27,801 nucleotides of DNA from a virus. The translations under genes and the position numbers were made by a program. The stretch covers positions 1 through 27,801 of the IMG/VR virus record IMGVR_UViG_3300031396_000383, one strand, 5' to 3'. The notes beneath the pieces were generated by a model. It saw only the letters and a list, made by a program, of their open reading frames with translations. It ran no database searches and was not told the origin of the DNA. Below are positions 1,247-24,198 of this stretch, piece after piece. How positions within the stretch are numbered: the stretch's first letter is position 1; each line of letters begins with the position of its first letter.

Positions 1247-2466
1247 CCCCCACACTCTACCTCACCCGCAACGGCCTCCTCGAACCCTTGGGTCAAAGTC
1301 AGGTAATTGCCTATTTGCGGGGCCTTTCACGGAACCACAAAATCACCCTGATTACCTATGAAAAACCCGAGGATTGGGCAGACAGTGACCGGATGGCCGA
1401 CGCGCGGGCCGATTGTGAGACGCATGGTATCCGTTGGCTGCCACAGAAGTTTCGAGCGCGCCCAAAGATTATCGCCCCGGCATTGAGCATGGCGCGCATG
1501 GTCTGGCTGGTACGCCGCGAAGTGAGGCGCGGCGGCATTCGACTAATCCATGCGCGATCATACATCCCTGCCGCTGTTGCCCTGACCGTCAGCCGGATGA
1601 CGGGGGTTCCGTTTCTGTTCGACATGCGGGCGCTCTGGCCGGAGGAGTTGGTCACGGCAGAGCGGTTGAAACGTGGATCGTTGATCCACCGGGCCATCGT
1701 TGCTGCTGAAAGAGCCTGTTTATCATCTGCCGCTGGAGTGATCTCGTTAACCCAAGCCGCTGTTGAGCATTTGAAAGATATCTATCCAAATAAATTGGCT
1801 GACCAGCGCCTTGTAGTCATTCCGACCTGTGCCGATCTTGATCGTTTCACTCCATTGGTGGAGCGTAAAAGCGGCCCGAAAGTCCATAGCTGCATTGGCA
1901 CCGTGCTGAGTGGATGGTTCCGTACGGAATGGCTTGCCGCTTGGCTGGCTGCGGCGGCATCACACGATCCGGAAGCTCGCTTTGAAATCGTCACAAGGGA
2001 TGATCCATTGCAAGTCCGGCTCGCTATTGATCCGGAGGGGCGTCTTGTCGATCGCCTCACGATAAGCCCGCGGCAAACTCAGGAGATGCCCGATGCGGTG
2101 CGGGGCCATGACCTATCGGTGATGTTTTATGCTGGTGGTGAAATTTCAGAACTTGGGCGTTCTCCGACGCGCATGGCGGAAATTCTGGGATGCGGCCTGC
2201 CCGTGGTGGCGAATGACGGTGTTGGCGACGTAGCGCGAATTATCGAGAAATATCGCGTTGGCATCCTGGTCGATGGCCCAACGCCTGAGCAGATGAAGGC
2301 TGCGCTATTAGCACTGGATGAGCTCATGACCGATCCTGATTTGCCCGCGCGTTGCCGCGCCGCTGCAGAAGAGGTTTTCTCCCTCAAAGGTGGAACGTCG
2401 GCATACGCCCGCCTTTATGAAGCGGTGCTCGATCAATCGAATGGAGCCAAAGCATGTGCGGAATAA
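1243..2466 (+). CDS. GT4-like glycosyltransferase
   Basis: 407 aa, a GT-B fold glycosyltransferase distinct from its upstream neighbour. Residues 8-27 (with LLEPLGQSQV) and FDMRALWPEE (126-135) are typical of a GT4 subgroup with an N-terminal Glyco_trans_4-type domain. The donor-domain signature is SPTRMAEILGCGLPVVAN (307-324) followed by DGVGDV, in place of a textbook EX7E motif. It starts with the ATGA overlap at 1243 and ends 13 bases inside asnB, so translation is probably coupled on both sides. It likely adds one sugar of the repeat unit; a rhamnosyltransferase is possible because the operon makes dTDP-rhamnose, but nothing in the sequence proves this. Confidence 0.85.
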   Translation: MTPTLYLTRNGLLEPLGQSQVIAYLRGLSRNHKITLITYEKPEDWADSDRMADARADCETHGIRWLPQKFRARPKIIAPALSMARMVWLVRREVRRGGIRLIHARSYIPAAVALTVSRMTGVPFLFDMRALWPEELVTAERLKRGSLIHRAIVAAERACLSSAAGVISLTQAAVEHLKDIYPNKLADQRLVVIPTCADLDRFTPLVERKSGPKVHSCIGTVLSGWFRTEWLAAWLAAAASHDPEARFEIVTRDDPLQVRLAIDPEGRLVDRLTISPRQTQEMPDAVRGHDLSVMFYAGGEISELGRSPTRMAEILGCGLPVVANDGVGDVARIIEKYRVGILVDGPTPEQMKAALLALDELMTDPDLPARCRAAAEEVFSLKGGTSAYARLYEAVLDQSNGAKACAE

Positions 2467-4433
2467 CTGGCTTTCTTGACCGCGAAGCGAGAGGCATTGA
2501 CGACATGCGCACCCGTATCCAGCCCATGACAGACAGCCTGCGCTTGCGGGGACCTGACGCTGAAGGGATATGGTTGGGCGAAGGCGTGGCATTGGGACAT
2601 CGGCGACTATCGATCCTTGATCTCAGTCCAGCTGGTGCACAGCCTATGCTCTCAGACTGTGGTAGGTTCGCGATTGTTTTCAATGGCGAGATCTACAACC
2701 ACCTCGATTTGCGTCGGGATCTTGAGCGTTTAGGAGCTACTTCAAATTGGCGCGGCCATTCTGATACTGAAACTCTGCTGGCAGGGGTCATGCACTGGGG
2801 ATTGGACGAGACCGTTCGGCGTGCGGCGGGCATGTTTGCTGTCGCGCTCTGGGATCGTAAGGAAAAGCGGCTGTCATTGGCGCGTGACCGGATTGGAGAA
2901 AAGCCTCTCTATTGGGGCTGGGCGGGGCAGACGCTAGTTTTTGGATCAGAGCTCAAGGCGTTGCGCCGCCATCGGGACTTTCCAACGAGCATCTGCCGTG
3001 AGGCATTGGCACAATATTTGAGCTTTGCCTATGTCCCCGCACCCCGCAGCATCCATCCGGGGATTTACAAGCTCGAGCCAGGCTGCATTCTGGAGGTCAA
3101 TGAAACACCACCGCTGTCGCCGCCACAACGGCCATTACGACCCGGCGACACCTTTGGTTCATTGTCGATCCGGCGCTATTGGTCGCTGAACGAGACGATC
3201 GAGGCAGGTAGTCGTTCTCGTTTCACGACTGAGGCCGAGGCGGTCACCACATTGGAGAACACGTTGAGCGAAGCGGTTGGGCGACAGATGATCTCTGACG
3301 TGCCACTTGGCGCGTTTCTGTCCGGTGGCATAGACAGTTCTCTCATCGTGTCAATGATGCAAGCGCAGTCATTGCGGCCTGTCAGGACGTTCACTGTCGG
3401 TTTTGAAAATGCTGCTTTTAATGAAGCTCCCCATGCGGCGGCAGTTGCCAAACATGTCGGGACGGATCACACAGAAATAATTGTGACCGAAAATGAAGCA
3501 CGGGATGTTATTCCCCTTTTGCCAGAGCTTTATGATGAGCCGTTCGCGGATTCGTCCCAAATACCAACTCATTTGGTCTGCCTAGCGGCGCGCGAACATG
3601 TAACAGTCGCGCTCTCTGGTGATGCTGGGGATGAGCTGTTTGGGGGATATAATCGCTATTTTTGGGGGCCTAGCATTTGGCGACGCCTGCGCGGGACTCC
3701 AGCGCCCCTCAGACGAGCCTTGGGGCGGGTGATTTCCGCCGTACCTTCATCCGCTTGGGATCGTGTCGGGACCCTGGGAAAGGGGAGATTCGCGATCAGT
3801 CGTGCGGGTGATAAGGCGCACAAGCTTGCCAGCGGTTTGCGCACGATTGAAAGTGTTGATGATCTGTACCGGAGCTTGGTTTCGGCATGGCCCGGAGACG
3901 CTCTAGTGAAAGGCCTCCAGGGAGTACCGTCATCGATCCTCAATGACGAATTGCCAGATATTCTCAAGGCTGACCCAGCTGCGCGCATGATGGTACAAGA
4001 CATGTGCAGCTACCTACCTGACGACATCCTGTGTAAGGTTGATCGTGCTGCAATGGGTGTCAGCCTCGAAACTCGGGTTCCATTTCTTGATCCTGAAGTG
4101 ATTGCCCTGTCCACCCGCTGGCCTACAAAGAGGAAGATTCGTGACGGTCAGGGAAAATGGGTGCTCCGCCAGGTTCTATATCGGCATGTGCCGCAAGACT
4201 TGATCGAACGTCCGAAAACTGGCTTCAGTATCCCTTTAGGAGATTGGCTCCTTGGTCAGCTGAAATCCTGGGCCGAAGACCTCCTCTCTCCCGTAGCGCT
4301 GGCAGCCGAAGACCTCCTTGATCCGGAACCAGTTCTAGCAGCTTTGAAGGAACATCTGTCTGGACGACATGACTGGGCGCACAGGCTTTGGATTGCCCTA
4401 ATGTTTCAGGCAGGGCGCGCGCATTGGAAATGA
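2454..4433 (+). CDS. asnB: Glutamine-dependent asparagine synthetase-like amidotransferase (AsnB family)
   Basis: 659 aa. The start is fixed by the MCGITGF terminus, where Cys2 becomes the N-terminal nucleophile of the class II glutaminase, and by GGAG seven bases upstream. Glutaminase-domain residues are visible: RRLSILDLS (50-58), FNGEIYN (76-82) and HSDTE (102-106). The synthetase domain has the ATP PP-loop SGGIDSS (290-296), then SGDAGDELFGGYNRY and CKVDRAAMGVSLETRVPFLD. All catalytic elements look intact. AsnB relatives inside polysaccharide clusters usually amidate a uronic acid or another carboxylated sugar (for example WbpS of Pseudomonas O-antigen clusters), not free aspartate; placement between glycosyltransferases favours that role here. 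It is longer than E. coli AsnB (554 aa) and close to the length of exopolysaccharide-cluster homologues. Confidence 0.93.
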   Translation: MCGITGFLDREARGIDDMRTRIQPMTDSLRLRGPDAEGIWLGEGVALGHRRLSILDLSPAGAQPMLSDCGRFAIVFNGEIYNHLDLRRDLERLGATSNWRGHSDTETLLAGVMHWGLDETVRRAAGMFAVALWDRKEKRLSLARDRIGEKPLYWGWAGQTLVFGSELKALRRHRDFPTSICREALAQYLSFAYVPAPRSIHPGIYKLEPGCILEVNETPPLSPPQRPLRPGDTFGSLSIRRYWSLNETIEAGSRSRFTTEAEAVTTLENTLSEAVGRQMISDVPLGAFLSGGIDSSLIVSMMQAQSLRPVRTFTVGFENAAFNEAPHAAAVAKHVGTDHTEIIVTENEARDVIPLLPELYDEPFADSSQIPTHLVCLAAREHVTVALSGDAGDELFGGYNRYFWGPSIWRRLRGTPAPLRRALGRVISAVPSSAWDRVGTLGKGRFAISRAGDKAHKLASGLRTIESVDDLYRSLVSAWPGDALVKGLQGVPSSILNDELPDILKADPAARMMVQDMCSYLPDDILCKVDRAAMGVSLETRVPFLDPEVIALSTRWPTKRKIRDGQGKWVLRQVLYRHVPQDLIERPKTGFSIPLGDWLLGQLKSWAEDLLSPVALAAEDLLDPEPVLAALKEHLSGRHDWAHRLWIALMFQAGRAHWK

Positions 4434-5512
4434 GCATGCGTCTTCTGGTCTTATCACGATATTCCCGACTTGGTGCCTCGAGCCGACTGCGAACGTTGCA
4501 ATATCGCGGGAGGCTTGAGGATGCTGGTTTTGAGGTGGAGTACTCGGCTCTCTTTGACGATGCTTACTTGCGAGGGCTTTACGCTGGCAACCAGAGCAAA
4601 GCGGCCATCCCGTCATATTATCGCCAGAGGGTTTCTCGCTTGCGGCGCAAACCAAGCCCCGCACTGATCTGGGTTGAAAAAGAGGCGCTGCCTTGGGTGC
4701 CTTGGATGGTTGAAAACGCGCTTTTGCCAAAGTCGGTGCCGGTGGTGAGTGATTACGACGATGCGGTGTTTCATCGCTATGAACGTCATAGACTTGCACC
4801 CGTCCGCTGGATCCTCGGGGCAAAGATCGATCGGATCATGCAACGTTCATCGCTTGTTACGGCGGGGAACAGCTATCTTTCAGATAGGGCGCACACATCA
4901 GGTGCGCAGCATGTGGAGATTGTTCCTACAGTCGTTGACCTTGAACACTACAACATTGTTAAGCCTGCTGCAGGCCCCTTCCCGCTCCGTATCGGCTGGA
5001 TTGGCTCGCCAAGCACGTGGACAGAATACATGGCGCCGATTATGCCATCCCTTACTTGTGTTGCTGGGGTAGAGAACGCGCGTATCTCGGCTGTCGGGGC
5101 AGGCAGGGCCGCCAAACCGCATCAATTCCTCGACATTCTGCCTTGGTCTGAAGAGACCGAAGTGGCCTCTATTCAAGCAATGGATATCGGGATTATGCCG
5201 TTGACTGACACGCCGTGGGCGCGTGGCAAATGCGGATATAAGTTGATCCAGTATATGGCGTGCGGCCTGCCAGTCATCGCATCTCCAGTGGGTGTTAACA
5301 CTGAGATCGTTGAACATGGTGTGAACGGATTTTTGGCCACAACAGACGCGGAATGGCGCGAGGCGCTCGTGATGCTGCTGCGCGACCCAGACCTTCGAAA
5401 TCGAATGGGAGCTGCGGGTCGCCAGAAAGTTGAAAAACAATATAGCCTTCAGGTCTGGGGCCCACGTGTGGCAGACATGCTGTCTAAAGTTGCGAGAGAA
5501 CACATCGCATGA
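4430..5512 (+). CDS. Glycosyltransferase (GT-B, GT4-like)
   Basis: 360 aa. The N-terminus (LLVLSRYSRLGASSRLR) and VSDYDDAVFHRY (106-117) mark a GT-B glycosyltransferase group common in exopolysaccharide clusters. The donor-domain signature RGKCGYKLIQYMACGLPV (265-282) replaces a classical EX7E motif. I chose ATG 4430 because it overlaps the asnB stop (ATGA, 4430-4433), as at most junctions of this operon. ATG 4436 gives a protein two residues shorter and has GGAA six bases upstream, so it is equally possible. An upstream ATG at 4388 adds 14 residues without family character and lies inside asnB. It probably adds another sugar to the repeat unit; specificity is unknown. Confidence 0.85.
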   Translation: MSMRLLVLSRYSRLGASSRLRTLQYRGRLEDAGFEVEYSALFDDAYLRGLYAGNQSKAAIPSYYRQRVSRLRRKPSPALIWVEKEALPWVPWMVENALLPKSVPVVSDYDDAVFHRYERHRLAPVRWILGAKIDRIMQRSSLVTAGNSYLSDRAHTSGAQHVEIVPTVVDLEHYNIVKPAAGPFPLRIGWIGSPSTWTEYMAPIMPSLTCVAGVENARISAVGAGRAAKPHQFLDILPWSEETEVASIQAMDIGIMPLTDTPWARGKCGYKLIQYMACGLPVIASPVGVNTEIVEHGVNGFLATTDAEWREALVMLLRDPDLRNRMGAAGRQKVEKQYSLQVWGPRVADMLSKVAREHIA

Positions 5513-6579
5513 TCTATGTGGCAGTCTTCAACGGCCTGATACTTTTGCGTTATTCGTTAATGCGGATGGTCAGTCTGCGCGGGCAGCTCTATGCACCGTT
5601 GCTGGCCACTTTGTTCTTGTTTTCTGCCTTCCGCTTCGAGGTTGGATGCGACTGGACTGGGTATCTGAATCAGTTCTACATTTACGGGACACTTAACTTT
5701 GCAGAATCGCTCGTTCAGCGGGAAGGATTGTGGACCAGTCTGTTTGTTTTTCAAAACTGGCTGGGATTACCATATCCCTGGATTAACGTATTTTCTTCGC
5801 TGATCTTTTTCTATGGAATTCATGTCTTTGCACGACGGCAGCCGGATGCACTGGCCTTTCTTATCCTGCTTTTTCCGATCCTGATCATCAACATGCCGAT
5901 GTCCGGCATTCGGCAGGGGGCTGCCATCGGCCTGATGTGCATCGCCTTTGCGGCTTTCATCGACCGTTCCATGTGGCGATTCGTTTTCATGACAGTGCTA
6001 GCATCACTGCTGCACTCTAGTGCCATTGTTTTCCTCCTGCTCGCACCGATGGTAACCGGTAACTATTCCCGTCAACGGCTGTTCCTGTCACTGCTGCTGG
6101 CCATACCAGGCGCGCTCGTCCTGATGTCTGGCGAAGCTGCTGAGGTAGCAACAAGCCGTTACGTCGGTACAGGTGTGGATGCCGCAGGTGCAGCCTTCCG
6201 TGTCGGCCTTCTTATGCTGACAGCTGTCTTCTTCCTGCTGTTTCTGAAGCGGAAATGGGCAACAACGTTTCCAGACGACTTCAAGCTTGTCATGATCGGT
6301 GCGCTCATGATGGCTGCCATGTTCGTTCTGGTCCCAATCTCCTCGGTTATTGGGGATCGTTTGGGATACTACCTCGTCCCGATTCAGGCGATGATATTTG
6401 CGCGTATTCCGTTCCTGCCCATTCGTAGAGACCGCGCTGTCTATGTAGCGTTGCCGTATATCGGCTTGCTGACGGTTTTTGTGGTTTGGACGTCTCTTTC
6501 TTCACACTTTCAGCAATGCTATCTGCCCTATCAAACGTGGCTTTTCGGATACCCCGACTTTTCCCGCGCTATATTTTGA
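5509..6579 (+). CDS. EpsG-family membrane protein, probable polysaccharide polymerase (Wzy-like)
   Basis: 356 aa, with many hydrophobic segments along the whole length (about eight to ten membrane helices). EpsG-family signatures are visible: FRFEVGCDWTGY near residue 43, INMPMSGIRQGAAIGL near 128-143 and a helix with LLHSSAIVFLLL near 167-178. EpsG proteins are inner-membrane proteins proposed to polymerise undecaprenyl-linked repeat units at the periplasmic face. The ATG at 5509 overlaps the upstream stop (ATGA). As the only polytopic protein in the block, it is the best polymerase candidate; no flippase or ligase is visible in the window. By eye its GC content is lower than that of the first glycosyltransferase gene, which hints at a mosaic operon. 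Confidence 0.82.
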   Translation: MIYVAVFNGLILLRYSLMRMVSLRGQLYAPLLATLFLFSAFRFEVGCDWTGYLNQFYIYGTLNFAESLVQREGLWTSLFVFQNWLGLPYPWINVFSSLIFFYGIHVFARRQPDALAFLILLFPILIINMPMSGIRQGAAIGLMCIAFAAFIDRSMWRFVFMTVLASLLHSSAIVFLLLAPMVTGNYSRQRLFLSLLLAIPGALVLMSGEAAEVATSRYVGTGVDAAGAAFRVGLLMLTAVFFLLFLKRKWATTFPDDFKLVMIGALMMAAMFVLVPISSVIGDRLGYYLVPIQAMIFARIPFLPIRRDRAVYVALPYIGLLTVFVVWTSLSSHFQQCYLPYQTWLFGYPDFSRAIF

Positions 6580-6591
6580 GCTGAATTAAAT

Positions 6592-7158
6592 ATGAAAATA
6601 TCTACAAAACCCCTCGAATTACCGGGCCTTCTTCTGGCTGAACCAAATCGCTTTGGCGACGATCGGGGGTATTTCGAAGAGACTTGGAACCGCCGTAACT
6701 TCGCAGATGGCGGTATCGACGTTGACTTCTTGCAGGACAATCATTCGCTGTCTGTTCCTTCGGGCACTTTGCGCGGGCTGCACTTTCAAGCACCACCCCA
6801 TGCGCAGGACAAGCTTGTGCGCTGCACGCGTGGGTCCGTCTATGATGTGGCGGTCGACATACGCGTTGGATCGCCAACCTACGGACGCTGGGCCGGTGTC
6901 ACCCTGTCAGCTGAGAACGGGCAGCAACTGTTCATTCCAAAAGGGTTTCTCCATGGCTTCATCACGTTAACGAAACAAACAGAGGTGCAATACAAATGCT
7001 CAGACTATTACGCACCAGAGAGTGATGGGACCGTTCGCTGGGACAGCGTGGGCATAGATTGGCCTTTGTCTGGGGATCCAGTCCTGTCTACCAAAGACGC
7101 CGCAGCACCACATTTTTCCGACTTTCAGTCCCCCTTTATTTTTGGTGAACCCCTATGA
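6592..7158 (+). CDS. rfbC: dTDP-4-dehydrorhamnose 3,5-epimerase
   Basis: 188 aa, the usual RmlC length (single cupin domain). It epimerises C3 and C5 of dTDP-4-keto-6-deoxy-glucose, the third step to dTDP-L-rhamnose, in the cytoplasm. Visible signatures are [10 protein letters not shown] (24-33), RGLHFQ (61-66, with catalytic His64), DKLVRCTRG (73-81, with conserved Lys74), [10 protein letters not shown] (114-123) and the tyrosine pair at 139-140. It follows the polymerase gene by 12 bases, the only non-overlapping junction in this part of the operon, without a strong ribosome-binding site. The stop overlaps the rfbB start (ATGA). Confidence 0.95.
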
Positions 7159-8204
7159 AACTACTTGTAACCGGCGGCGCGGGTTTCATCGGATCGGCCG
7201 CGGTCCGCCTTGCCATCGCGCGCGGCAATGCTGTTGTCAATCTAGATGCGCTGACCTATGCAGCCTGTGTGGAGAATGTCGCCTCAGTCGCGGGGTCGCC
7301 TCTGTATGCTTTCGAGCACGCTGATATTCGGGATCGCAGCGTGTTGGATCGCATTTTTGCGGAACACGAACCTGATGTTGTCTTGCATCTTGCTGCGGAG
7401 TCCCATGTGGATCGCTCGATTGATGCCCCCGCTGATTTTGTCGAGACGAATATCACTGGCACGTTCAACATGCTGGAGGCCGCTCGAGCTTATTGGATAC
7501 GGAAGGGAAAACCAGAAAGCTTTCGCTTTCACCACGTCTCAACAGACGAGGTGTTCGGCTCTTTGCCTGACGATCCAGAGGCCATGTTCACCGAAGACAC
7601 TGCTTATGATCCTCGTTCGCCCTATTCGGCGTCAAAGGCGGCATCAGATCATTTGGTCAGGGCGTGGCACGAGACCTATGATCTGCCGGTGGTGCTGACG
7701 AACTGCTCGAACAACTACGGGCCTTATCATTTCCCGGAAAAGCTGATCCCAGTGGTGATCCTGAACGCGCTTCATGGCAAGCCGATCCCGATTTACGGGA
7801 AAGGCGAAAACGTCCGGGATTGGCTCTATGTCGAAGACCACGCCGACGCGCTTTTATTGGTGCTGGAAAAGGGTGAAAACGGGCGCAGCTACAACATTGG
7901 CGGCGAGAACGAGTTACGCAATATCGATCTTGTGCGCACGATTTGCGCGATCTTGGACAAGAAAAAACCCAAGCCTCAGGGCTCCTACGCCGATCAGATG
8001 ACTTTTGTGACCGACCGGCCCGGGCACGATGCGCGCTACGCGATTGATCCAAGGCGGATTCGTGACGAATTGGGCTGGCGTCCGTCGGTCACTGTTGAAC
8101 AAGGGCTTGAGCGGACCGTGCAGTGGTATCTGGAGAATGAAACCTGGTGGCGACCGCTGCTGAATCGATCCGGCGTGGGCGATCGATTGGGCGTGAAAAC
8201 GTGA
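7155..8204 (+). CDS. rfbB: dTDP-glucose 4,6-dehydratase
   Basis: 349 aa, typical RmlB length, an extended short-chain dehydrogenase. It oxidises, dehydrates and reduces dTDP-glucose to dTDP-4-keto-6-deoxy-glucose, the second step of dTDP-rhamnose synthesis. The NAD-binding loop GGAGFIG is at residues 7-13. [13 protein letters not shown] (78-90), the catalytic triplet STDE (129-132) and Y157-x3-K161 in YSASK follow, then [18 protein letters not shown] and DWLYVEDH. The start overlaps the rfbC stop by four bases. All catalytic residues are present, so the enzyme should be active. Confidence 0.96.
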
Positions 8205-9061
8205 AACTTTTCGTCTTTGGAAAAACAGGGCAGGTTGCCCGCGAACTCGCGCAACATTGCCCCTCTGACGTTGAGGCACGCTTTCTAGGGCGGCAGGACG
8301 TTGATCTGTCATCACCTCAATCCTGTGCGGATGCCATCTTGGCATGTGATGCCGACGCAGTGATCAATACCGCTGCCTGGACGGCCGTTGATCAGGCAGA
8401 AGAATCTGAGAACGCCGCAACGATCATAAATGGCGAAGCACCTGGAGCAATCGCACATGCCTGCGCGCAAAAGGGCATTCCCTTCCTGCATCTCTCAACC
8501 GATTATGTTTTTGACGGGACTGGCACGGAGCCATTCACCCCTGATCATCCCGCGGCACCAATTTCGGCTTACGGGCGATCGAAACTCATTGGTGAAGAAG
8601 CGATCCGCATCAGCGGTGCCCAGCATCTTATCCTGCGCACCAGCTGGGTGGTCTCGGCCCATGGAGCGAACTTTGTCAAGTCGATGCTACGGCTGGGACA
8701 AGAGCGCGACACCCTCAACGTTGTGGCTGATCAGATCGGTGGACCCACAGCGGCCGCTGACATTGCACGTGCACTTTTAATAGCGGCACGCGCAATGGTC
8801 ACAGGCCACCCAGGTGGCACTCATCATTTTGCCGGTGCTCCTGATACCAGCTGGGCTGATTTTGCACGCGCCATCATGCACAGCGCAGACCTGCCGTGCC
8901 AAATCCAAGACATCCCGTCATCAGATTACCCGACACTGGCCTGCCGCCCCCTGAATTCACGGCTTGATTGCACGTCCTTCGAGCGTGAGTTCGGCGTCAG
9001 CCGTCCGGATTGGCGTCTCAGTCTCGACGATATTTTAACAGAACTTGGAGCCCGCACATGA
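8201..9061 (+). CDS. rfbD: dTDP-4-dehydrorhamnose reductase (GTG start)
   Basis: 286 aa when read from the GTG at 8201, which overlaps the rfbB stop (GTGA) and begins exactly at the Rossmann strand ([12 protein letters not shown]). An in-frame ATG at 8147 would add 18 residues with no family character from inside rfbB, so I rejected it. The enzyme reduces dTDP-4-keto-L-rhamnose with NAD(P)H, the last step of the pathway. Key motifs are [13 protein letters not shown] (56-68), LSTDYVFDG (98-106), Y124-x3-K128 in YGRSK, RTSWV and [10 protein letters not shown]. The next gene starts by a four-base overlap. Confidence 0.95.
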
Positions 9062-9927
9062 AACGCAAAGGCATTATTCTGGCGGGCGGATCTGGAACGC
9101 GCCTCTGGCCGATCACGATGGGCGTGTCGAAACAGCTCTTGCCGATCTATGACAAGCCAATGATTTACTACCCGCTTTCGGTTTTGATGCTCAGTGGGAT
9201 CCGTGAAATTGCAATCATCACCACACCAGACGACCAGCTGCAATTCCAACGCTTGATGGGGGACGGCAGTCAGTGGGGAGTTCAATTCACCTGGATCGTT
9301 CAGCCCTCGCCGGATGGACTGGCACAGGCCTATCTGCTTGCGCGCGATTTTCTCTCAGGCGCGCCATCAGCGATGGTTCTGGGCGACAACATCTTTTTTG
9401 GCCACGGCTTGCCCGAACTTCTGGCCGCTGCTGATGCGCGCCCGCAGGGTGGAACCGTGTTCGGGTATCACGTGATGGATCCAGAACGTTACGGCGTGGT
9501 GGACTTCGATGCTGATGGCAGTGTGAAAGCGATTGTCGAAAAACCGACGGTGCCGCCGTCCAACTATGCTGTCACGGGTCTCTACTTTCTGGACGGCCGT
9601 GCCCCCGATCTTGCGGCACAGGTGCAACCATCTGCGCGCGGAGAGTTGGAGATCACCGAGCTTCTGGAGCTGTACCGTGCCGAGGGCGCCCTGCATGTCG
9701 AACAGATGGGGCGTGGCTTCGCTTGGCTTGATACGGGCACACATGGCAGCCTGCTTGATGCGGGAAACTTCGTGCGCACGCTGACAGAGCGCCAAGGGCT
9801 GCAGGTCGGATCACCCGATGAAATCGCCTATTGGGCGGGGTGGATTGACCGCGACCAGCTTGCGGAGCGGGCGGATGTGTTCAAGAAAAGCGGATATGGC
9901 ACGCATCTCAAGGGAGTCCTTGGATAA
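9058..9927 (+). CDS. rfbA: Glucose-1-phosphate thymidylyltransferase
   Basis: 289 aa, typical RmlA length. It joins dTTP and glucose-1-phosphate to dTDP-glucose, the first step of the rhamnose pathway and usually feedback-inhibited by dTDP-rhamnose. The nucleotide-binding loop GGSGTRLWP is at residues 10-18, with K26QLLPIYDKPMIYYPL following, then LGDNIFFG (108-115), EKP and RGELEITELLELY. I chose ATG 9058 because it overlaps the rfbD stop (ATGA) and has GGAG seven bases upstream (9047-9050); the in-frame ATG at 9010 adds 16 residues unlike the family. It is the last gene of the operon; 45 bases further on lies the end of the convergent phage block. Confidence 0.96.
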   Translation: MKRKGIILAGGSGTRLWPITMGVSKQLLPIYDKPMIYYPLSVLMLSGIREIAIITTPDDQLQFQRLMGDGSQWGVQFTWIVQPSPDGLAQAYLLARDFLSGAPSAMVLGDNIFFGHGLPELLAAADARPQGGTVFGYHVMDPERYGVVDFDADGSVKAIVEKPTVPPSNYAVTGLYFLDGRAPDLAAQVQPSARGELEITELLELYRAEGALHVEQMGRGFAWLDTGTHGSLLDAGNFVRTLTERQGLQVGSPDEIAYWAGWIDRDQLAERADVFKKSGYGTHLKGVLG

Positions 9928-16201: not shown

Positions 16202-16645
16202 TCAGATATCTCCACCGTCCGGGAACCGGAACACAAATGCCGCGCGCGCCCACCACGCTGCGGTGATCGCCTGCTCAAGGACGCCGTGCACGGAATGCCC
16301 GTGCACCATCCGGTCCGGGGCGACCAAAATACCCGCGTGCCTGGCAATCGCCCAGGACCGCATCCGAAACAGCACCACGTCTCCGGGCTGTGCCGCACCC
16401 TCAACTGCGATCATGCAGCCCGCGCAGCCATCGCGCAGAACCTCATCTGCCCGCACCTCGCCCCAATCCGGGGAATAGGGCGGCAGGCCCGGCGTCTCCA
16501 AGCCCACCACATCACGCCAGACCCCGCGCAAAAGCCCGAGGCAATCGCAGCCCACGCCGAGAAGCGAGGCCTGATGATGATAAGGCGTGCCAAGCCAAGC
16601 CCGCGCCGCCGCGATTACGCGCACGGAATCTGCAGCGCGCCTCAC
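16202..16645 (-). CDS. NlpC/P60-family cell-wall peptidase of the tail tip (GTA gp14-like, GTG start)
   Basis: 147 aa. The nucleophile motif GVGCDCLGLLRG spans residues 30-41, with Cys35 in the D-C-x-G-L position; His103 in ARHAG is the expected catalytic histidine. The WLGTPYHHQ entry (17-25) and the PGDVVLFR strand are typical of the family. It should cut a peptidoglycan peptide bond locally during DNA entry. The start is GTG at 16645, overlapping the DUF2163 stop (GTGA). It sits between the hub and megatron genes, as in GTA clusters. Confidence 0.9.
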   Translation of the reverse strand: MRRAADSVRVIAAARAWLGTPYHHQASLLGVGCDCLGLLRGVWRDVVGLETPGLPPYSPDWGEVRADEVLRDGCAGCMIAVEGAAQPGDVVLFRMRSWAIARHAGILVAPDRMVHGHSVHGVLEQAITAAWWARAAFVFRFPDGGDI

Positions 16646-17526
16646 AGCACCCGCCCATCATGACCACCGCCCTGCGTTGCGTAGCGCAGGATGGCGTCTT
16701 GTCCGGGGATGCTCGGAAACCCGCGAAAATTGACCACATTGTTGAACCGCGCTGCACAGGTCTCGATCCGCTTGTCGCAGCCTGCGAAGACGACAAACGC
16801 ATCGCCCGGCGCGATGTCATTCACCGACTCCGCAAACAGTGTCAGCCGGGCTCCGCTGTCAGACAGCTCGTGCAGCATGAGCTCCGCGCGCCGTCCGGCA
16901 TTGGCACCACTGGTCCACTCAATCGTGCCTGCATCAAACCAGCCCGCCCCAAAGCCGCCTAGATTGAAGCTGGAGATCACCCGGCCGCGCAGGACGCTGC
17001 CCACCGTGCCATCGCCCCTAAAAGCCGGATTGCTGAGATCAACACCGCAGCGCACGTCGCCCAAGGCCGCGTCGCATTGCGCCTGATAGGCGCGCCCGAC
17101 CTGCTGGTTGAGCACATGGGCGATGCTGCGCACTTCCGCCACGAAGGCGATCCGCCCGCGTCTGATCTGGCCGATGGAGCCACGCCGCAACAGCACGCGC
17201 TGCTCGGTATCCTGCCAGTTGACGCGCCAGACCTCGACCGAGGCGTTGTCCCAGCGCCCGTCGAGGATGTCGGTCTCGGTGATGCGGTCCGAGGACAGCA
17301 CGCCCTCGGCATCTTGCGCATCGACCGAGAGATCAGACCCTTGCCGCAGCTCTGACGGGATCAGCCCGGCTTCGCTTTCAAAGCTGGTGCTGTCAAAACT
17401 CAGCAACCGGTCATGGTCGGTAAAGCCAAAGACCACGCCATCAGCCCTAGTGATGCGCCAGCACCAGGCCAGCGTGGTGGTCCCGGATGCGAAATGTGCC
17501 TGCAGGTCGTCCGTCAGGGTCTTCAT
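16642..17526 (-). CDS. DUF2163 tail hub protein (GTA gp13-like)
   Basis: 294 aa, the normal length for the TIGR02218/DUF2163 family. The N-terminal domain carries VVFGFTDHDRLLSFD (31-45) and SDRITETDILDGRWDNASVE (79-98). The C-terminal domain contains four spaced cysteines, C151 and C160 (in QCDAALGDVRC) and C250 and C257 (in CDKRIETC), suited to hold an iron-sulfur cluster; lambda gpL and the RcGTA hub are described as Fe-S proteins. The hub connects distal tail ring and tip. It starts by an ATGA overlap with the heme-oxygenase-like gene and ends by a GTGA overlap with the peptidase gene. Confidence 0.92.
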   Translation of the reverse strand: MKTLTDDLQAHFASGTTTLAWCWRITRADGVVFGFTDHDRLLSFDSTSFESEAGLIPSELRQGSDLSVDAQDAEGVLSSDRITETDILDGRWDNASVEVWRVNWQDTEQRVLLRRGSIGQIRRGRIAFVAEVRSIAHVLNQQVGRAYQAQCDAALGDVRCGVDLSNPAFRGDGTVGSVLRGRVISSFNLGGFGAGWFDAGTIEWTSGANAGRRAELMLHELSDSGARLTLFAESVNDIAPGDAFVVFAGCDKRIETCAARFNNVVNFRGFPSIPGQDAILRYATQGGGHDGRVL

Positions 17527-18026
17527 CTGCGCCCCTCAATCTCATCCATCACAGCGAGCAGCCCCGCGAACACGGCCCGCGCGCCATCTGCCAGGTCAGC
17601 ACGATCCCGCAGGGATTTAACCAGCGCCTCCACCTCAGCAGGCAGCGGATAGATCACATGCGCGGTCGGCAGCCCTGCCTTGCCCATTGTGGAGGCCAGC
17701 ACCCGGCCGCCGCGCCGGTGCGCGCCGTGCAAGACGTAGGCAGCAGCCGCGATGCTGGTCGGCGTGGTGAGGGTTGCCGCAAGCGTATTTGCCGCCTGCC
17801 CAACACGCGGCGCAGGCAGCAACGCCAGATCAGCATCGAGCAGTGCCACGCGTGCCATATGGGCTGGGTGATGTGGATCAATCACCACATGGACTGCGCG
17901 GAACGCGGCCAGCCAGTCGGCCCACTCTTGGTGCGAAACTGAGCCTGCGGTCATGCGCTGGCCCACGGGGTGTGCTTCGCAGGCATGGTGCAGATCGCGC
18001 GTGGCCTCGTACAGACCGCCCATCAT
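17523..18026 (-). CDS. Heme-oxygenase-like protein encoded in the tail operon
   Basis: 167 aa from the ATG at 18026, which overlaps the upstream stop (ATGA); an ATG at 18077 adds 17 residues and overlaps the neighbour by 55 bases. The N-terminus LYEATRDLHHACEAHP matches the first helix of bacterial heme oxygenases, with the T-x3-H-x3-E pattern at T9, H13 and E17; H13 would be the proximal heme ligand. The later helix AAAYVLHGAHRRGGRVLAS (95-113) resembles their distal helix (YVLEGSxLGG), but the Gly motif is one residue longer (G101-x4-GG106). The protein is slightly shorter than typical BphO/HmuO proteins. If active it would open heme to biliverdin, CO and iron. Alternatively it keeps only the helical fold and serves tail assembly. 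The assignment rests on motif reading. Confidence 0.6.
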   Translation of the reverse strand: MMGGLYEATRDLHHACEAHPVGQRMTAGSVSHQEWADWLAAFRAVHVVIDPHHPAHMARVALLDADLALLPAPRVGQAANTLAATLTTPTSIAAAAYVLHGAHRRGGRVLASTMGKAGLPTAHVIYPLPAEVEALVKSLRDRADLADGARAVFAGLLAVMDEIEGRR

Positions 18027-18229
18027 TGGGTGGCACCATCTGGATTGCCACCAAGGGCGATGACGCGCGTCCGCCAAGGCAGGCGGCGGGGAAAGGTCTC
18101 GAAGCTGGCCTGTCCGGAGGAGAGGCTTTCCCCGGGTGCCAGTACCCCGAAATGCAATGCCGGGCCATGGGCAATCCAGAAGGTCCGGGTTGTGGCGGTG
18201 AAGCTGTGGGTGGTCAGATCATGGGTCAT
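18023..18229 (-). CDS. Small protein of unknown function, coupled to tail genes
   Basis: 68 aa from the ATG at 18229, which overlaps the stop of the BspA-type fibre gene (ATGA, 18226-18229); its own stop overlaps the next start in the same way (18023-18026). A longer in-frame version from 18319 would lie inside the fibre gene and is less likely. The sequence looks like short beta strands (FWIAHGPALHFGVLAPGES, residues 17-35) with no membrane segment, signal peptide or cysteine. I do not recognise it. Tight coupling on both sides suggests a small structural or chaperone role for the fibre or for the heme-oxygenase-like protein. Confidence 0.65.
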   Translation of the reverse strand: MTHDLTTHSFTATTRTFWIAHGPALHFGVLAPGESLSSGQASFETFPRRLPWRTRVIALGGNPDGATQ

Positions 18230-21096
18230 GCGGGGGTGTCTCCGATAAGTGTCCAGGCGGCGCCTGCGATCAGCAGCGTTGCGGTTGAAAGCAAGCCGGT
18301 CCAGCTGGTGACACTCCAAGGATCGGCACCAGTGCCGGTCGCCTGCGGGCTGTCGTCGGGGTCGTAGAGGGTCCAGTCGGGGCCGGTTTTGAGGAAATAC
18401 CAGCCGTCTACGTTGAGATAGACGCTGGTGGCGGCGTTAAAGGGATAGGGACCGTTTGCTTCGGGCGTGGTGGCCCCTGCGACACTCAGGCTGCGCGCCG
18501 TCGTGAGAAACGCGCGCCCGGCTACCGCGTTGGTAAATCGCGACCCCGGTTGATAGGCGGTAGTGTTGAAACGGCGCGCCTCGAAGAGCGCTGCAACATT
18601 GAGCGGCCCGCTGATGGTGGCAACACGGTTTGCCCAGCCTGTCAGCAGGCGCGAATAATTGGCCTCTGAGAAGGCGCGCTCGACATCAATCGCCATGAAA
18701 TCCGACAGATCAACGCCGAGTGCGCGCAGTGGCCATTGGGAAATATCCTGATCAAAGCTCTGGCGGCACCCTCGAAACATGTCGCGCAGGGTCTCGACGC
18801 GGCTGACATCCCAAGCCCCGATGGGCTGGTTGAAGCGGTGATGGGGACTGTTGGAGCCGCCGTCCCCTGAGCGGAACATGGCGCGCATATTGGTCACATT
18901 GGAAACATCCCAAGCCACGATTGAGGGGCTGCCGCCGTTGTTGAACTCCGCCCGCTGTGCAGCGCCTGCGCCGACCGCGCCAAACATCGCCTCCATGGTG
19001 ATGACGTTCGAGACGTTCCAGCCACCGATGTCCTGGTCGAAGAAGGCACGTTGGGCATTGGTGCTGACGGAGGCGAACATGAAGGCCATGTCGATTACGC
19101 CTGAGACGTCCCAGGTGCCGATCGGCTTGTTGAACAGCCCGCTGCGAAACATCCCCTGCATGGTGGTGACGGCCGCGACGTTCCAGGCCCCCAGCGGTTG
19201 GTCATAATCGCAATTCGCGAACATCTCGCTCATATCGGTGACGCTCGAGACGTCCCATGCATTAAGAGAGCGGTTGAACCCATGAAACCCCGACACGCCG
19301 AGGAACATGCCGGATGTGGTGATGACGTTGGCGATGTTCCAGGCGGAGATGTCCTGATTGAAGCTGCGTGCCAGCGCGAACATGCGGTGCAGGTTGGTGG
19401 CAGCGGAGGTGTTCCACTGATTGAGCGGTTGGTTGAACGCATGGGTGTTCTGGCTGATGCCGGGATTGGCGAGATGGCCCATGAAACCTTCGAAGTTTTG
19501 CACAGTGGAGACATTCCAGCCATTCAGCGGCTGGTTGAAGGCGGCACCGATTTTTCCGACATTGGCGCGCGCGGTGCAGCCAAACATCAGGCGCATGTTG
19601 GTGATGCTGCTGACGTCCCAGCTGGCAATGGGCTGATTGAACAGCACACGCCCGTCGCGTCCGCCGTAGTAATCGCCGATGGTCTGGACGAACATCTCCT
19701 CCATTGAGGTGAGGCTCTCCCAATTACCAAGGGAGAACGGGCTATTCATCTGGCTGTCGGCGAAGGCCTGGAAGACATCTGTGACGCGCCCCACGTCCCA
19801 ATTGGCGCAGTTTGGGCCGATGCCATTCGAGCGATAGAAGATCCTGCGCAGGTTGGTGATGTTGCGGGTATCCAGGTCGCGCAGATCAGCGGCGCAAACG
19901 CTCTCTTGGAACAGCTCCTCAAAGCTGGTGACGGTCTCGGGGATGTTTGGGGTGATATAATCCAGCGCCGTGGCGGTCTGTCGAAACGCGCCGCGCAAGG
20001 ATGTGAGCCCCATGGCAAAGCCAATGTTCTCGACGCGGATCAGCCCTGACTGGTCGATGGGCTGGGTGGTACCGTACCAGTCAAGACGACCGGTGATGGT
20101 GACGGTCACGCGCGGGCCAGAACCCTCGGCATAGGTATGCGGCTTGATCCCGGCGGTGGTGAATCGCTCAGAGTTGCCGTCGCCCCAGTCAATCATGACA
20201 TCGAGGGGGTTGTTGATCGTGCCACCTCCGAGCGGTACGAAGATCGTGCGTGCGGTGGCAAGCGCCAGATCATAGGTCAGGATCAAAGAGGCTGCGCCGA
20301 GAAAGAAGCTGCGCGGGGAGGACCAAGCGGAATAGATCATCGGAGCGGAGGCATTGAGCCGCCCGCCATAGCGGCTGCGCCAGAGATAGTTCGCAGCAGG
20401 CACCAGCGGCGGGATCGGGACGGTGGTGATGGCCCCGCTGGTGTGGGTCACGGTGATCAGGGGCGCGTCGACGCCGGGCGTGGCATCGGGCGCATAGAAC
20501 GCGGTCTGGGTCTCGCCGTAGCCATAGCCAAAGAGCGACGCGCTCTCGAAATCCGTGATGCGCACTGTGCCGGTGATGGCATTCTCGCGGGTGATGGGCG
20601 TGGGGCGCGAGATCAGCTCGGGGAAGGTCTGGGCATAAGGAACAGAGAAGTTCGATTGCGCCCCGCTGGTGCCGGTATAGGCAGCGCGCCAGAGCACGCG
20701 GTCGCCGGGACCAAAGCCGTCCTCGGGGAATTCCAGCTGATAGGTATTGCCAAAGCCTGACACGATGCGCGTCAGTGCGCCGTCAAAATCCACGCCGTTG
20801 CTGGAAATCTCAAAGATGATACCAGTCTGCTCAAGGCCAGCAGGCGAGCGAAACGTGGTCAGGCGCAGCTGGGTGCGCTCATCAACGCTGAAGGGCACAA
20901 GTGCCGAGGGGCGCAGGATCTCGTTGTCCTCGATGGGCACGATCCATTCAAGGCCGTTGGAATAGTAGAACTGGCCGTTCTCGCCTACCACCGCCGCCCC
21001 AAAATACTGCGCCGCATCAAGTGGGATCGGGACGGGATAGATCAGGGACTGGCCGACAAAGCGGCCACGGCCAGTGGCGTAGCGCAGAATACTCAT
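18226..21096 (-). CDS. Tail fibre/adhesin with BspA-type (DUF285) repeats
   Basis: 956 aa. Residues 1-280 are beta-rich with Fn3-like stretches (for example SRPTPITRENAITGTVRITD, 163-182). Residues about 295-335 resemble a PKD-like module (IDWGDGNSERF then HTYAEGSG). From about 364 to 820 there are at least ten BspA/DUF285 repeats of the type FNQPIxxWDVSxVTxMxxMF. A C-terminal beta domain (820-956) contains VYLNVDGWYFLKTGPDWTLYD. DUF285 repeats are known from surface adhesins and lipoproteins of bacteria and mycoplasmas; in a tail operon they probably form a receptor-binding surface. There is no signal peptide, which fits a virion protein. The start overlaps the upstream stop (ATGA). Confidence 0.88.
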   Translation of the reverse strand: MSILRYATGRGRFVGQSLIYPVPIPLDAAQYFGAAVVGENGQFYYSNGLEWIVPIEDNEILRPSALVPFSVDERTQLRLTTFRSPAGLEQTGIIFEISSNGVDFDGALTRIVSGFGNTYQLEFPEDGFGPGDRVLWRAAYTGTSGAQSNFSVPYAQTFPELISRPTPITRENAITGTVRITDFESASLFGYGYGETQTAFYAPDATPGVDAPLITVTHTSGAITTVPIPPLVPAANYLWRSRYGGRLNASAPMIYSAWSSPRSFFLGAASLILTYDLALATARTIFVPLGGGTINNPLDVMIDWGDGNSERFTTAGIKPHTYAEGSGPRVTVTITGRLDWYGTTQPIDQSGLIRVENIGFAMGLTSLRGAFRQTATALDYITPNIPETVTSFEELFQESVCAADLRDLDTRNITNLRRIFYRSNGIGPNCANWDVGRVTDVFQAFADSQMNSPFSLGNWESLTSMEEMFVQTIGDYYGGRDGRVLFNQPIASWDVSSITNMRLMFGCTARANVGKIGAAFNQPLNGWNVSTVQNFEGFMGHLANPGISQNTHAFNQPLNQWNTSAATNLHRMFALARSFNQDISAWNIANVITTSGMFLGVSGFHGFNRSLNAWDVSSVTDMSEMFANCDYDQPLGAWNVAAVTTMQGMFRSGLFNKPIGTWDVSGVIDMAFMFASVSTNAQRAFFDQDIGGWNVSNVITMEAMFGAVGAGAAQRAEFNNGGSPSIVAWDVSNVTNMRAMFRSGDGGSNSPHHRFNQPIGAWDVSRVETLRDMFRGCRQSFDQDISQWPLRALGVDLSDFMAIDVERAFSEANYSRLLTGWANRVATISGPLNVAALFEARRFNTTAYQPGSRFTNAVAGRAFLTTARSLSVAGATTPEANGPYPFNAATSVYLNVDGWYFLKTGPDWTLYDPDDSPQATGTGADPWSVTSWTGLLSTATLLIAGAAWTLIGDTPA
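18637..20009 (-). repeat. Coding region of BspA/DUF285 leucine-rich-type repeats
   Basis: Roughly residues 364-820 of the fibre protein. Full units (core W-[DN]-V-S-x-V-x-x-M-x-x-M-F) recur every 25-50 residues, for example at about 487, 520, 554, 579, 607, 632, 655, 686, 724 and 755, with degenerate units before and after. Spacers vary in length, and at DNA level the units have diverged, so this is a protein repeat and not a recent tandem duplication. Confidence 0.85.
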
Positions 21097-21506
21097 GAGA
21101 TCACCGTGAAGTCTTCGCGTTGGTTGAGGATGAAGGAGAAATGCGCGATGGCGGCCTCGCTGGCCTCGACCTTCATCTGGAAGCGCTCGCCTGCGCGCAG
21201 TACCTGGCGATCAAGCCCGATCGAGAGAACATCGCCTGCGGGCGCGAAGGCGCGGTCCAGCAAAAGCCACGGCGTGTTGTTGAAGGCGAGGATCCGGATC
21301 GAGACACGCACGGAGGCCCCGGCGGTGGGGGTGATGAGCACACCGGTCATGATGGCGGCCGTCCCGATGCTGCGGGCGGGGTTTGGGCCCTCGCTGGGGA
21401 TCAGATAGTCGGGCACGTCATAGATGGTCGTCCACTCGACGCCGATTTCTGCGCGAACCACCTCGAAGAGGTTCAGGGGCGGGCGCGGTGTGGTGATGGT
21501 GACCAT
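21093..21506 (-). CDS. Small beta-rich tail protein of unknown function
   Basis: 137 aa from the ATG at 21506, which has GGAG nine bases upstream and lies four bases after the adhesin stop. The in-frame ATG at 21596 would add 30 Ser/Pro-rich residues from inside the adhesin gene and was rejected. The sequence alternates short beta strands (TAAIMTGVLITPTAGASVRV, then DVLSIGLDRQVLRAGERFQM) without membrane segments or cysteines. It could be a collar or adaptor joining the beta-helix protein or BspA fibre to the tail. I do not recognise a family. The stop overlaps the fibre start (ATGA). Confidence 0.7.
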   Translation of the reverse strand: MVTITTPRPPLNLFEVVRAEIGVEWTTIYDVPDYLIPSEGPNPARSIGTAAIMTGVLITPTAGASVRVSIRILAFNNTPWLLLDRAFAPAGDVLSIGLDRQVLRAGERFQMKVEASEAAIAHFSFILNQREDFTVIS

Positions 21507-21510: not shown

Positions 21511-23481
21511 TCAAGCTCCGAGACCGATGATGAGGGGGAGGGCGATGTTCTGCACACCGCGCGAGAAGGCCTGGCCTTCGATGGTGTTGCGCTCAAAATC
21601 CACGCGCAGGTCTTCGCCGAGATAGGTATCGCCGACCTCGGTGGAGAAGGTGGCGTAGATCCGGCCGCCGCCGGTCTTCAGCAGCGTGCTGGCCGGATCG
21701 GGCGCGCGGCCGGTGCCGCGCTGGCTAAAGGGCAGTGCGTTGTAGTTAACGCCGGCACCTGCGTAGCTGAACTGCTGGCTGGTGGCCTCGATGACGGAGG
21801 CAAAGCCCACGCGGTAATCTTGCGGGCGCGTGACCACATCCGAAATCAGCCCGATCAGGGCGCTGATCATTGCTTGTGCCGCGTTGGTGCTGATCTGCGC
21901 GATCAGCTCAAGGCGGACCTGCTCCCAGGTGGCGAGAAACAGCGGCACGAGGGCGACCGAGAAGGCGTAATTGGCGTTCCAGTCAAAGAGCCCTTTGGCA
22001 AAGAACTGCGCGCCGCGATCCTGCCCTGAGCGCAGATCATTGATCAGGCTGCGCAGAAGCGTGCGGGTGTCGCGCTCGGTGAAAGCCTTGTCGCGCGCTG
22101 AGAGGCCATTGAAGCCTGTAAGCGTTGGATAGCGCGTGTTCATCAACGCGGTGATGATGGCTTCTGTCTGGGCGGTGATGGTGTTGGCGGCAGCGGTGTG
22201 CGTGGCCAGCACGCCGGTTCCGGCCAGCCCTTCGATCTGGACCGTGTTGCGGAACCCGGTCGCGGCAAGAGCATAGTCCCCAAAGGTGTTGTTGGAGTTG
22301 GCGACGGTGATTTGCCCGCCGTCATGGGCCCAAAGGCCGACGCGGGCCCAGTTGGTGAAGACCGAGACCAGCTGGACAAAGGCATTGCGGGTGACGGCAT
22401 AGCCGACACCATTGGGATTGATCGCGGTAAAGCTGTCGACCACGACCGAGCGCAGCGGTGAGGACGGGGCGAGGACCGAGCCGTCGGCCAACAGGTTCCC
22501 GCCACCGCGCGGCATCAGCGGATTGCCTGCGGCCTTGTCGACCGGCAGGGCCATTTGGTCCTGGGTAAAGCTGTGCAGCTGCGAGCAATCGGCGATATAG
22601 GGCGATCGCGTCAGGACCTCGCCGGGTTTAAACACAAAGGACCAGCCTTTTTGCGGTGGGCCGCCCGCCAGCGTATAGGACTCATGGCGCAGATTTGAGA
22701 AGGTAAAGCCACGGGCTTTGATGCCGTTGGACATCTGGAACATGTTGTTCACCTCCTGGCCCGGCGGCAGGCTCAGCTTGGTGACGCGCAGGTCATAGCC
22801 GTAAAGGGCGCAATTGGCGGGGATCACCGTATCGGGGGGCACGATGTATTCGCCGGGCTGCACAATCACCACGCAGGGCTGGGCAACTGCTGCAGCGCGT
22901 GCGAGGCCCTCAGTGATGCTGGCAAGGGGCGAGGTCAGCGAGTTGCCCTCATTGAGGTCCTTGCCGTCCATGGTAACATAGAAGGTGCGCGCGACGGGCA
23001 CCGAGACGAAGGGCAGCCGCTCGAGACTGCAGACCTCGACGTCGGTGGCGTGTCCAAGCCCGAATGTGCGCACCCATGGCACGGCGTAGCGCGCGCCAAT
23101 CGGGGCCACCACGCTGGCGGGACCCTCGGCTTCGGCCACGACCGAGGTGCGGACCTCGCGCCGCCCATCCGCGACGGTGAAGTTGAGAATCGTCTCGACT
23201 GTGGTCGTGGAAAGGGCCGTCTTGTCTGCAGCCAGCCAGTCGATGCCGCAGGCAATTGCATCATCGGACGGATCGGGGCTGTTTGTGGTGCGCCGAAACA
23301 CAGCACGAAACGCGTAGCGCTCCTCGGCCTCAATCGGCACCGGGGTCAGTGCTGTTACCTGCTGGCTGGCATCAAGACGGATCACCTTTCCAAAGGTGTT
23401 CTGGGTGACAAGCCCTCCGCCGAGATCATAAAGCTGGGGCGTATCGCCGGGGCGATGTTCAAGGGCAGTATAAGTCTGCAT
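21511..23481 (-). CDS. Beta-helix tail adhesin with a C-terminal module like cyanophage structural proteins
   Basis: 656 aa. Residues about 165-410 look like a right-handed beta-helix: entry TFYVTMDGKDLNEGNSLTSP (166-185), then VIVQPGEYIVPPDTVIPANC (205-224) and later rungs with FTNWARVGLWAHDGGQITVA (375-394). Residues about 460-656 (RDTRTLLRSLINDLRSGQ, then YAGAGVNYNALPF, GGGRIYATFSTEVGDTYLGE and a Gly-rich end) resemble repeated modules of virion proteins of T4-like cyanophages, from memory. It is probably a trimeric tailspike or fibre for receptor binding; I see no catalytic residues that would show depolymerase activity. It follows the DUF2460 gene after an 87-base gap, the largest in the phage block, with only a weak ribosome-binding site. 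Confidence 0.8.
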   Translation of the reverse strand: MQTYTALEHRPGDTPQLYDLGGGLVTQNTFGKVIRLDASQQVTALTPVPIEAEERYAFRAVFRRTTNSPDPSDDAIACGIDWLAADKTALSTTTVETILNFTVADGRREVRTSVVAEAEGPASVVAPIGARYAVPWVRTFGLGHATDVEVCSLERLPFVSVPVARTFYVTMDGKDLNEGNSLTSPLASITEGLARAAAVAQPCVVIVQPGEYIVPPDTVIPANCALYGYDLRVTKLSLPPGQEVNNMFQMSNGIKARGFTFSNLRHESYTLAGGPPQKGWSFVFKPGEVLTRSPYIADCSQLHSFTQDQMALPVDKAAGNPLMPRGGGNLLADGSVLAPSSPLRSVVVDSFTAINPNGVGYAVTRNAFVQLVSVFTNWARVGLWAHDGGQITVANSNNTFGDYALAATGFRNTVQIEGLAGTGVLATHTAAANTITAQTEAIITALMNTRYPTLTGFNGLSARDKAFTERDTRTLLRSLINDLRSGQDRGAQFFAKGLFDWNANYAFSVALVPLFLATWEQVRLELIAQISTNAAQAMISALIGLISDVVTRPQDYRVGFASVIEATSQQFSYAGAGVNYNALPFSQRGTGRAPDPASTLLKTGGGRIYATFSTEVGDTYLGEDLRVDFERNTIEGQAFSRGVQNIALPLIIGLGA

Positions 23482-23568: not shown

Positions 23569-24198
23569 TTACAGCAGTCGGATCTCGATCAGCGGGATTG
23601 AGGTGATCGAGCCGAGGCGTTCGATATCGAGGGTGACGTCCATCAGATCGCTGTCGAAGCGGACGGGCACGTCGAACTGATAGCCTGCAGTGAGGGCCAC
23701 GCCGGGATCCGGGGCGACCTCAAAGGTGACGATCCCGGTGACGGGGTCCGTCAACCAGCCGTTGAACTGCTCGGCACCGCTCAGCGCGACGCGGATTGTT
23801 CCTGCGACCGGCTTCTCGATGCGGCGCTGATAGACATGTGGCAGGGTGCCGTAAGCTTTGGTCAGCGCGAAGGACGTGGTGGCACCGTCGCCGATCCCGA
23901 GGGGCTGGTCCATCTCGGACACACCCTTTGAGGGGGCGCAGGATTTGTAATCAGCCCAGTCCTTGAACCGGAAGCCATAGAGCCGTCCGAGCCGCGCTTC
24001 AAAAAACCCAACCACGGCGTGCAGATCATCCGCGCGCCGAACGCCGTAGGATACATCGTAGCGACGCCGCGACGCGGACCAGGAGGCGTTGCGCTCCTCG
24101 CGGCCTGAGGCCAGCTCCACGATCTGGGTGCGCCGCTGTGGACCGCCGCGCGCCCCGCGGCTGATGTTGTCGGGAAACTGCACTTCGTGAAACGCCAT
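23569..24198 (-). CDS. DUF2460 distal tail protein (GTA gp12-like)
   Basis: 209 aa, the normal length for the TIGR02217/DUF2460 family. Signatures are AFHEVQFPDNISRGARGGP (2-20), RNASWSASRRRYDVSYGVR (36-54), RLYGFRFKDWADYKS (72-86) and a C-terminal LDIERLGSITSIPLIEIRLL. I chose the ATG at 24198, which overlaps the tape-measure stop as TGATG; the open frame upstream to 24795 is a shadow of the tape-measure gene. In RcGTA the homologue forms the distal tail ring between tube and hub. Here the hub gene is separated from it by five extra genes. Confidence 0.92.
   Translation of the reverse strand: MAFHEVQFPDNISRGARGGPQRRTQIVELASGREERNASWSASRRRYDVSYGVRRADDLHAVVGFFEARLGRLYGFRFKDWADYKSCAPSKGVSEMDQPLGIGDGATTSFALTKAYGTLPHVYQRRIEKPVAGTIRVALSGAEQFNGWLTDPVTGIVTFEVAPDPGVALTAGYQFDVPVRFDSDLMDVTLDIERLGSITSIPLIEIRLL

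Follow-up and report, generated by a model that had tools for sequence, protein, structure and literature searches.

What would a heme oxygenase be doing in the tail operon of a bacterial virus? The question is raised by a 27,801-base viral record from IMG/VR, which was analyzed over its whole length (referred to here as the window) and in which a short gene with heme-oxygenase features lies among tail genes. The reading preferred here, for which the chances are judged about even, is that the gene represents a phage-specific branch of the heme oxygenases (enzymes that open heme to biliverdin) and belongs to a fibre cassette; its product would bind heme, might cleave it in the late phase of infection, and would act on behalf of the fibre. 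No earlier account of a heme oxygenase in a tail-fibre cassette was found in the open-access papers searched.

The gene and its tail operon

The minus strand of the window holds a tail operon of siphovirus type, of the sort seen in gene transfer agents (Table 1). Its order runs from the tube, tape measure, and DUF2460 genes through the fibre genes and the heme-oxygenase-like gene to the hub (Gp84_N), which is followed by an NlpC peptidase, a GTA-TIM host-specificity protein, DUF2793, and an M15 peptidase. The first-pass annotation had described a 167-aa product at 17523–18026 with T9, H13, and E17 and the stretch YVLHGAHRRGG, and the translation agrees throughout, with the latter stretch starting at Y97. 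The strand is minus: the plus strand contains a stop codon over this interval, and the ORF runs from 18026 to 17523. The position among tail genes was likewise given correctly and is kept across relatives. Coupling by 4-base overlaps was found on both sides as described, the small upstream ORF ending at 18023 where the gene starts at 18026, and the gene ending at 17523 where the hub gene starts at 17526. The small ORF, not the fibre gene, is the immediate upstream neighbor, and the DUF285 fibre gene lies one gene further upstream. In sequence, this small ORF resembles the N-terminal part of an accessory protein of the tail fibre found in relatives (191 aa in locus L104, PHROG 10508 tail fiber). 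The hub protein is recognized by its Phage_phiJL001_Gp84_N (E 9e-61) and BR0599 (E 6e-28) domains. Adjoining the tail operon, the plus strand carries a block of glycosyltransferase, asparagine-synthase, EpsG, and rhamnose-nucleotide genes (152–9927) that is perhaps a host-derived or surface-sugar cluster.

Table 1. Features of the window around the heme-oxygenase-like gene
Feature	Coordinates	Strand	Basis or remark
Baseplate hub protein gene, downstream cassette boundary	16642..17526	minus	Phage_phiJL001_Gp84_N + BR0599
Heme-oxygenase-like gene, 167 aa	17523..18026	minus	ORF list, PDB profile, AF2, Foldseek
Small upstream ORF	18023..18319	minus	98 aa in the ORF list; 68 aa if started at the inner ATG (18229)
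DUF285-repeat fibre protein, 956 aa	18226..21096	minus	
p167b, small conserved cassette protein, ~137 aa from inner ATG	21093..21506	minus	
Fibre/spike protein p656	21511..23481	minus	PHROG tail fiber; AF2, Foldseek
p656 helical domain resembling phycobiliproteins, residues 426-560	21802..22206	minus	Profile comparisons
DUF2460 distal-tail gene, 209 aa, upstream cassette boundary	23569..24198	minus	

Homology and predicted fold

Against Pfam family PF01126, the window protein reaches 13.3 bits (cut-off 23, E 0.076), and 20 of 32 family members match PF01126 at E up to 1, the best at 6.3e-5. Since the score lies under the gathering cut-off, the protein is named heme-oxygenase-like and is not filed as a Pfam member. 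When the family profile was compared with all PDB sequences, heme oxygenases accounted for 22 of 22 hits (best E 1.3e-4), and in a single hhalign comparison the family profile and one made from 12 alphaproteobacterial heme oxygenases aligned across 162 columns at E 2.5e-15. The AlphaFold2 model, which was built from the family alignment, has a pLDDT of 96.8 and a pTM of 0.92, and each of the 50 Foldseek matches listed for it is a heme oxygenase, with TM values reaching 0.85. This result and the invariance of H13 (see below) sustain the heme-oxygenase identity that had been proposed from the motifs. Membership in the heme-oxygenase superfamily is virtually certain, and common descent with the heme oxygenases is well supported.

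The predicted fold is common to the phage protein and the PF01126 heme oxygenases (human and rat HO-1, HmuO, BphO). The phage protein differs from these enzymes in its sub-threshold Pfam score, its compact length of 167 aa, an aromatic residue at the Lys18 position, an Ala-His pair in place of G139-D140, and the siting of its clade in tail cassettes. The same compact fold is found in two BFVD models that are labelled “heme oxygenase” and come from uncultured Caudovirales phage (A0A6J5RJ96 and A0A6J5KN38, TM 0.85–0.88), yet identity is only 16 to 22%, and a sister family may exist.

The heme pocket

Conservation was assessed in an alignment of 54 diverse phage members, with a cellular comparison set of 13 sequences, and residues were placed in the register of human HO-1. 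On the proximal side, T9, H13, and E17 correspond to T21, H25, and E29; elsewhere, Y97 corresponds to Y134, A102 to G139, H103 to D140, G106-G107 to G143-G144, and R140 to R183. F153 and M160 are presumably the equivalents of F207 and F214, based on the alignment with cellular sequences and the HO-1 sequence. T9, H13, E17, Y97, G106, G107, R140, F153, and M160 are invariant (54/54), and the proximal histidine with its T-x3-H-x3-E pattern, the distal-helix Gly-Gly, and the propionate anchors equivalent to Tyr134 and Arg183 are thereby present in every member. The glycine motif had been described as one residue too long (G-x4-GG), which is an artefact of register: with Y97 set on Y134, the extra residue vanishes and G106-G107 falls on G143-G144. 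Eight of the 20 HO-1 heme-site positions, taken from PMC3026835 with Arg183 added from PMC7948506, are among the 16 invariant columns (P 7e-5), and 11 of the 20 are among the 25 nearly invariant ones (P 7e-6).

Other positions differ from the cellular pattern. At the position of HO-1 Lys18, one of the propionate anchors, the cellular set is basic in 13 of 13 sequences (11 Arg, 2 Lys), whereas an aromatic residue is present in 54 of 54 phage members (24 Trp, 22 Tyr, 8 Phe). The distal Asp140 position is His in 53 of 54 members and Tyr in one (L272); a viral scan with this H103Y member as query returned zero relatives. Asp140 is not universal among heme oxygenases and is missing from plant and BphO-type enzymes. 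The active plant enzymes GmHO-1 and AtHO-1 carry Ala149-His150 in the distal helix at the place of phage A102-H103, and soybean HO-1 works with a different hydrogen-bond network (PMC7948506). Plant HO-1 retains a basic residue, Arg23, unlike the phage protein, and close kinship is not claimed. In human HO-1, activity is lowered by the Asp140His substitution (PMC7948506), and G139A is reported, in a crystal-structure paper, to shift HO-1 toward peroxidase activity. The three-His/three-carboxylate ligand set of heme-oxygenase-like diiron oxidases has possible candidates in H13/E17, H46/D50, and H103, of which H46 (Gln in five members) and H103 are not invariant.

Judged by this conservation pattern, the phage protein probably binds heme; by analogy with characterized enzymes it may also be catalytic, a proposal that could go either way. 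A heme-binding but non-catalytic protein in or on the fibre, whose heme would serve structurally, for sensing, or to lure heme receptors, would also fit a pocket that retains its proximal His and most other residues but is altered at the distal pair and at one of the propionate anchors, and would agree with the fixation of the gene in the fibre cassette described below. The occurrence of the Ala-His pair in active plant HO-1 (PMC7948506) and the invariance of the distal Gly-Gly argue against this reading, which is possible but on the whole unlikely. That the fold can serve without catalysis is known from the pseudo heme oxygenase PfHO of Plasmodium (PMC11634067). In PfHO, however, neither the His ligand nor the Gly-Gly is left, and both are invariant in the phage family.

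Linkage to the fibre cassette

In the window, the gene closes a five-gene fibre cassette that lies between the DUF2460 and hub genes. In most loci, the genes upstream are p656, then p167b, then another fibre gene, which is variable; a small accessory ORF often follows. Relatives carry other fibre proteins in place of the DUF285 fibre of the window, often with its N-terminus retained. For p167b no convincing family match was obtained, and an NCBIfam search returned no family. Of the loci, 69 have 5.5 kb or more of sequence between their start and the gene, and a fibre cassette is present upstream in 59 of these; counted as distinct sequences, 50 have one and 6 do not (50/56). In the reverse test, which started from p656, 19 loci had 5 kb or more of downstream sequence, and the gene was present in every one. 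These loci are fairly close relatives of the window through the choice of query and are partly redundant, but they include divergent ones missed by earlier scans. The downstream side varies across loci and may hold a hub, an M15 peptidase, or an internal virion protein gene. In the Rhodobacter phage RcKemmy, the counterparts of the DUF2460 and hub genes are immediate neighbors, the pre-hub and hub genes overlapping by 4 bases with no gene between them, which implies that the window holds an insert of about 6 kb ending with the heme-oxygenase-like gene. With very high probability, the gene belongs permanently to a tail-fibre cassette that is itself mobile, which suggests that a cofactor-type protein can be a fixed part of the fibre module across several tail types.

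One clade (L134/L139, contigs of 63 and 86 kb) carries the gene amid small and non-structural genes in a gene-poor stretch with no fibre gene nearby. The phage has T4-like replication genes, and a contig of this clade (G002) encodes a p656-type helical-domain protein about 47 kb from the gene. Stop-codon recoding was considered for the gene-poor region, and no single recoding gave a clear gain.

Location directly behind a fibre or accessory gene, as is the case for fibre chaperones in other phages, and the strength of the linkage would also suit a fold that was recruited elsewhere, for example, as a fibre-assembly chaperone or connector, and has lost heme binding. This reading would explain the loss of the Lys18-type anchor and the conservation of the further histidines H14 (nearly), H19, and H123, which are not needed for heme binding. 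It is unlikely, as heme-site positions are over-represented in the best-conserved part of the alignment and the L134/L139 clade places the gene among small and non-structural genes. Supply of iron to HxH motifs of the fibre was also considered and rejected, as HxH occurs in 0 of 10 window tail proteins checked.

Distribution and descent

A protein-level scan of IMG/VR recovered 42 loci, and profile scans of IMG/VR gave 124 and then about 136 matching stretches, of which the best 80 of 124 and the best 80 of 136 were kept; the majority of loci are fragments from metagenomes. Bacterial genomes from 84,980 species yielded three loci, all in Rhodobacteraceae, and 397 genomes from one family yielded four clear matches. 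No match to the family was present in 50,697 phage records, and the gene was not found among the known phage isolates and plasmids of INPHARED and PLSDB. The family belongs to marine bacterial viruses. A copy in a Rhodobacteraceae genome (L275, 7830–8339, minus strand) lies without the tail genes of the window nearby and has Asp in place of H14; it is possibly an orphan remnant.

The dN/dS of the gene against close relatives is about 0.07 to 0.22, and that of the hub gene is about 0.10, which indicates purifying selection near the level of the hub gene. In the phylogenetic tree, the phage family forms a single clade (support 99/93) apart from 13 alphaproteobacterial heme oxygenases; the cellular part has long branches and the exact sister group is unsure. 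Recent capture from a host was rejected on the basis of this separation and of two lysogens without a PF01126 match.

A heme-oxygenase fold is likewise phage-borne in the bilin cassettes of cyanophages and pelagiphages, in which Ho1/HemO lies beside pcyA/pcyX or alaS and acts in pigment synthesis (PMC11480375). Unlike these genes, the window gene has a fibre-cassette context. A bilin cassette or electron donor on the same contig was searched for and rejected: PF05996, CpeT, and Fer2 were found in 0 of 9 related contigs, in which no ferredoxin, bilin reductase, or CpeT lyase gene was seen, and which are possibly incomplete fragments. A plain auxiliary metabolic role, in which the enzyme would recover iron from heme or supply the infected cell with biliverdin and its gene would lie beside the fibre genes by chance, would have parallels in the active heme oxygenases carried as metabolic genes by other phages (PMC11480375) and in the stand-alone L134/L139 clade, but it is made very improbable by the cassette linkage in 50 of 56 distinct sequences, by a family that is one clade (99/93) and not a scatter of host captures, and by the missing bilin reductase and CpeT genes in the nine contigs.

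Proposed function

For the preferred reading, a heme-binding branch of the heme oxygenases that serves the fibre, the following course is proposed. Heme would be bound between the two helices that carry H13 and the Gly-Gly motif, with the Ala-His distal pair used as in plant HO-1. Late in infection, the heme may be opened to biliverdin, CO, and iron with electrons supplied by the host. The product, or the heme-loaded protein itself, might subsequently serve the fibre encoded in the same operon, a step that is put forward with less confidence. Comparative sequence evidence speaks for this reading through the heme-site enrichment, the invariant Y97 and R140, purifying selection, and the fibre linkage (59/69, 19/19, and the insertion seen against RcKemmy). 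Against it stand the aromatic residue at Lys18, the Pfam score of 13.3 bits, the effects of Asp140His and G139A, the exceptions at H103 and H46, the stand-alone clade, and the missing ferredoxin, reductase, and CpeT genes. The idea of iron or heme in phage tails (Ferrojan horse) becomes testable on a defined gene.

The helical domain of p656

The model of p656 consists of a CBM-like N-terminal part, a β-helix, and a helical domain at about residues 426 to 556 that is predicted with high local confidence. The Foldseek list for the whole protein is taken up by the other domains. When a profile of the helical domain was compared with the PDB, the top matches were the C-phycocyanin alpha chain (E 0.0039 and 0.013) and the phycobilisome core (0.031). 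By hhalign, the domain aligned over nearly its whole length with ten phycobiliproteins at 2.8e-5 or 1.3e-4, and heme-oxygenase controls in the same comparison gave 0.2 to 0.9. When 15,520 stretches were searched directly with an HMM, p656 proteins ranked first, yet only at E 0.42. At the position of the bilin-attachment residue Cys84, p656 domains have Thr in 25 of 29 cases and Cys in 0 of 29, and the Asp three residues past this position is retained in 27 of 29. Taken at the level of sequence profiles, the evidence that the C-terminal domain of p656 resembles phycobiliproteins, which are bilin-binding antenna proteins, is weak to moderate.

A fibre with a phycobiliprotein-like domain next to a heme-oxygenase-like protein hints that the tail fibre may make use of heme or of something formed when heme is broken down. 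T4-like cyanophage genomes often hold bilin genes. If biliverdin from the heme-oxygenase-like protein were bound noncovalently by the p656 domain, the result would be a bilin-loaded fibre, and T4-like cyanophages might use their bilin genes partly in the same way; this is quite improbable. If true, it would tie the heme-oxygenase-like protein and p656 together, and the phycobiliprotein-like fibre domain poses a new question on why phages carry bilin genes.

Searching the phage collection with phycocyanin produced 22 weak matches, every one in a Synechococcus phage, and most of the matches listed are labelled as tail or structural proteins. C-x-R-D domains from Synechococcus phages align with the p656 domain at 3.1e-10 and with phycobiliproteins at 1.4e-8, the latter value being inflated by selection of the domains for their C-x-R-D motif. 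These phycobiliprotein-aligning domains occur in giant tail or structural proteins of S-PM2, S-CAM1, S-WAM1, and ACG-2014j (L284–L287) and of loci L281 and L282, and they have Cys at the bilin-attachment position. In S-CAM1 (L285), a gene for a CpeT-like chromophore lyase (716–1252) lies a few genes ahead of the gene for a tail protein with phycocyanin-like domains (2317–6165).
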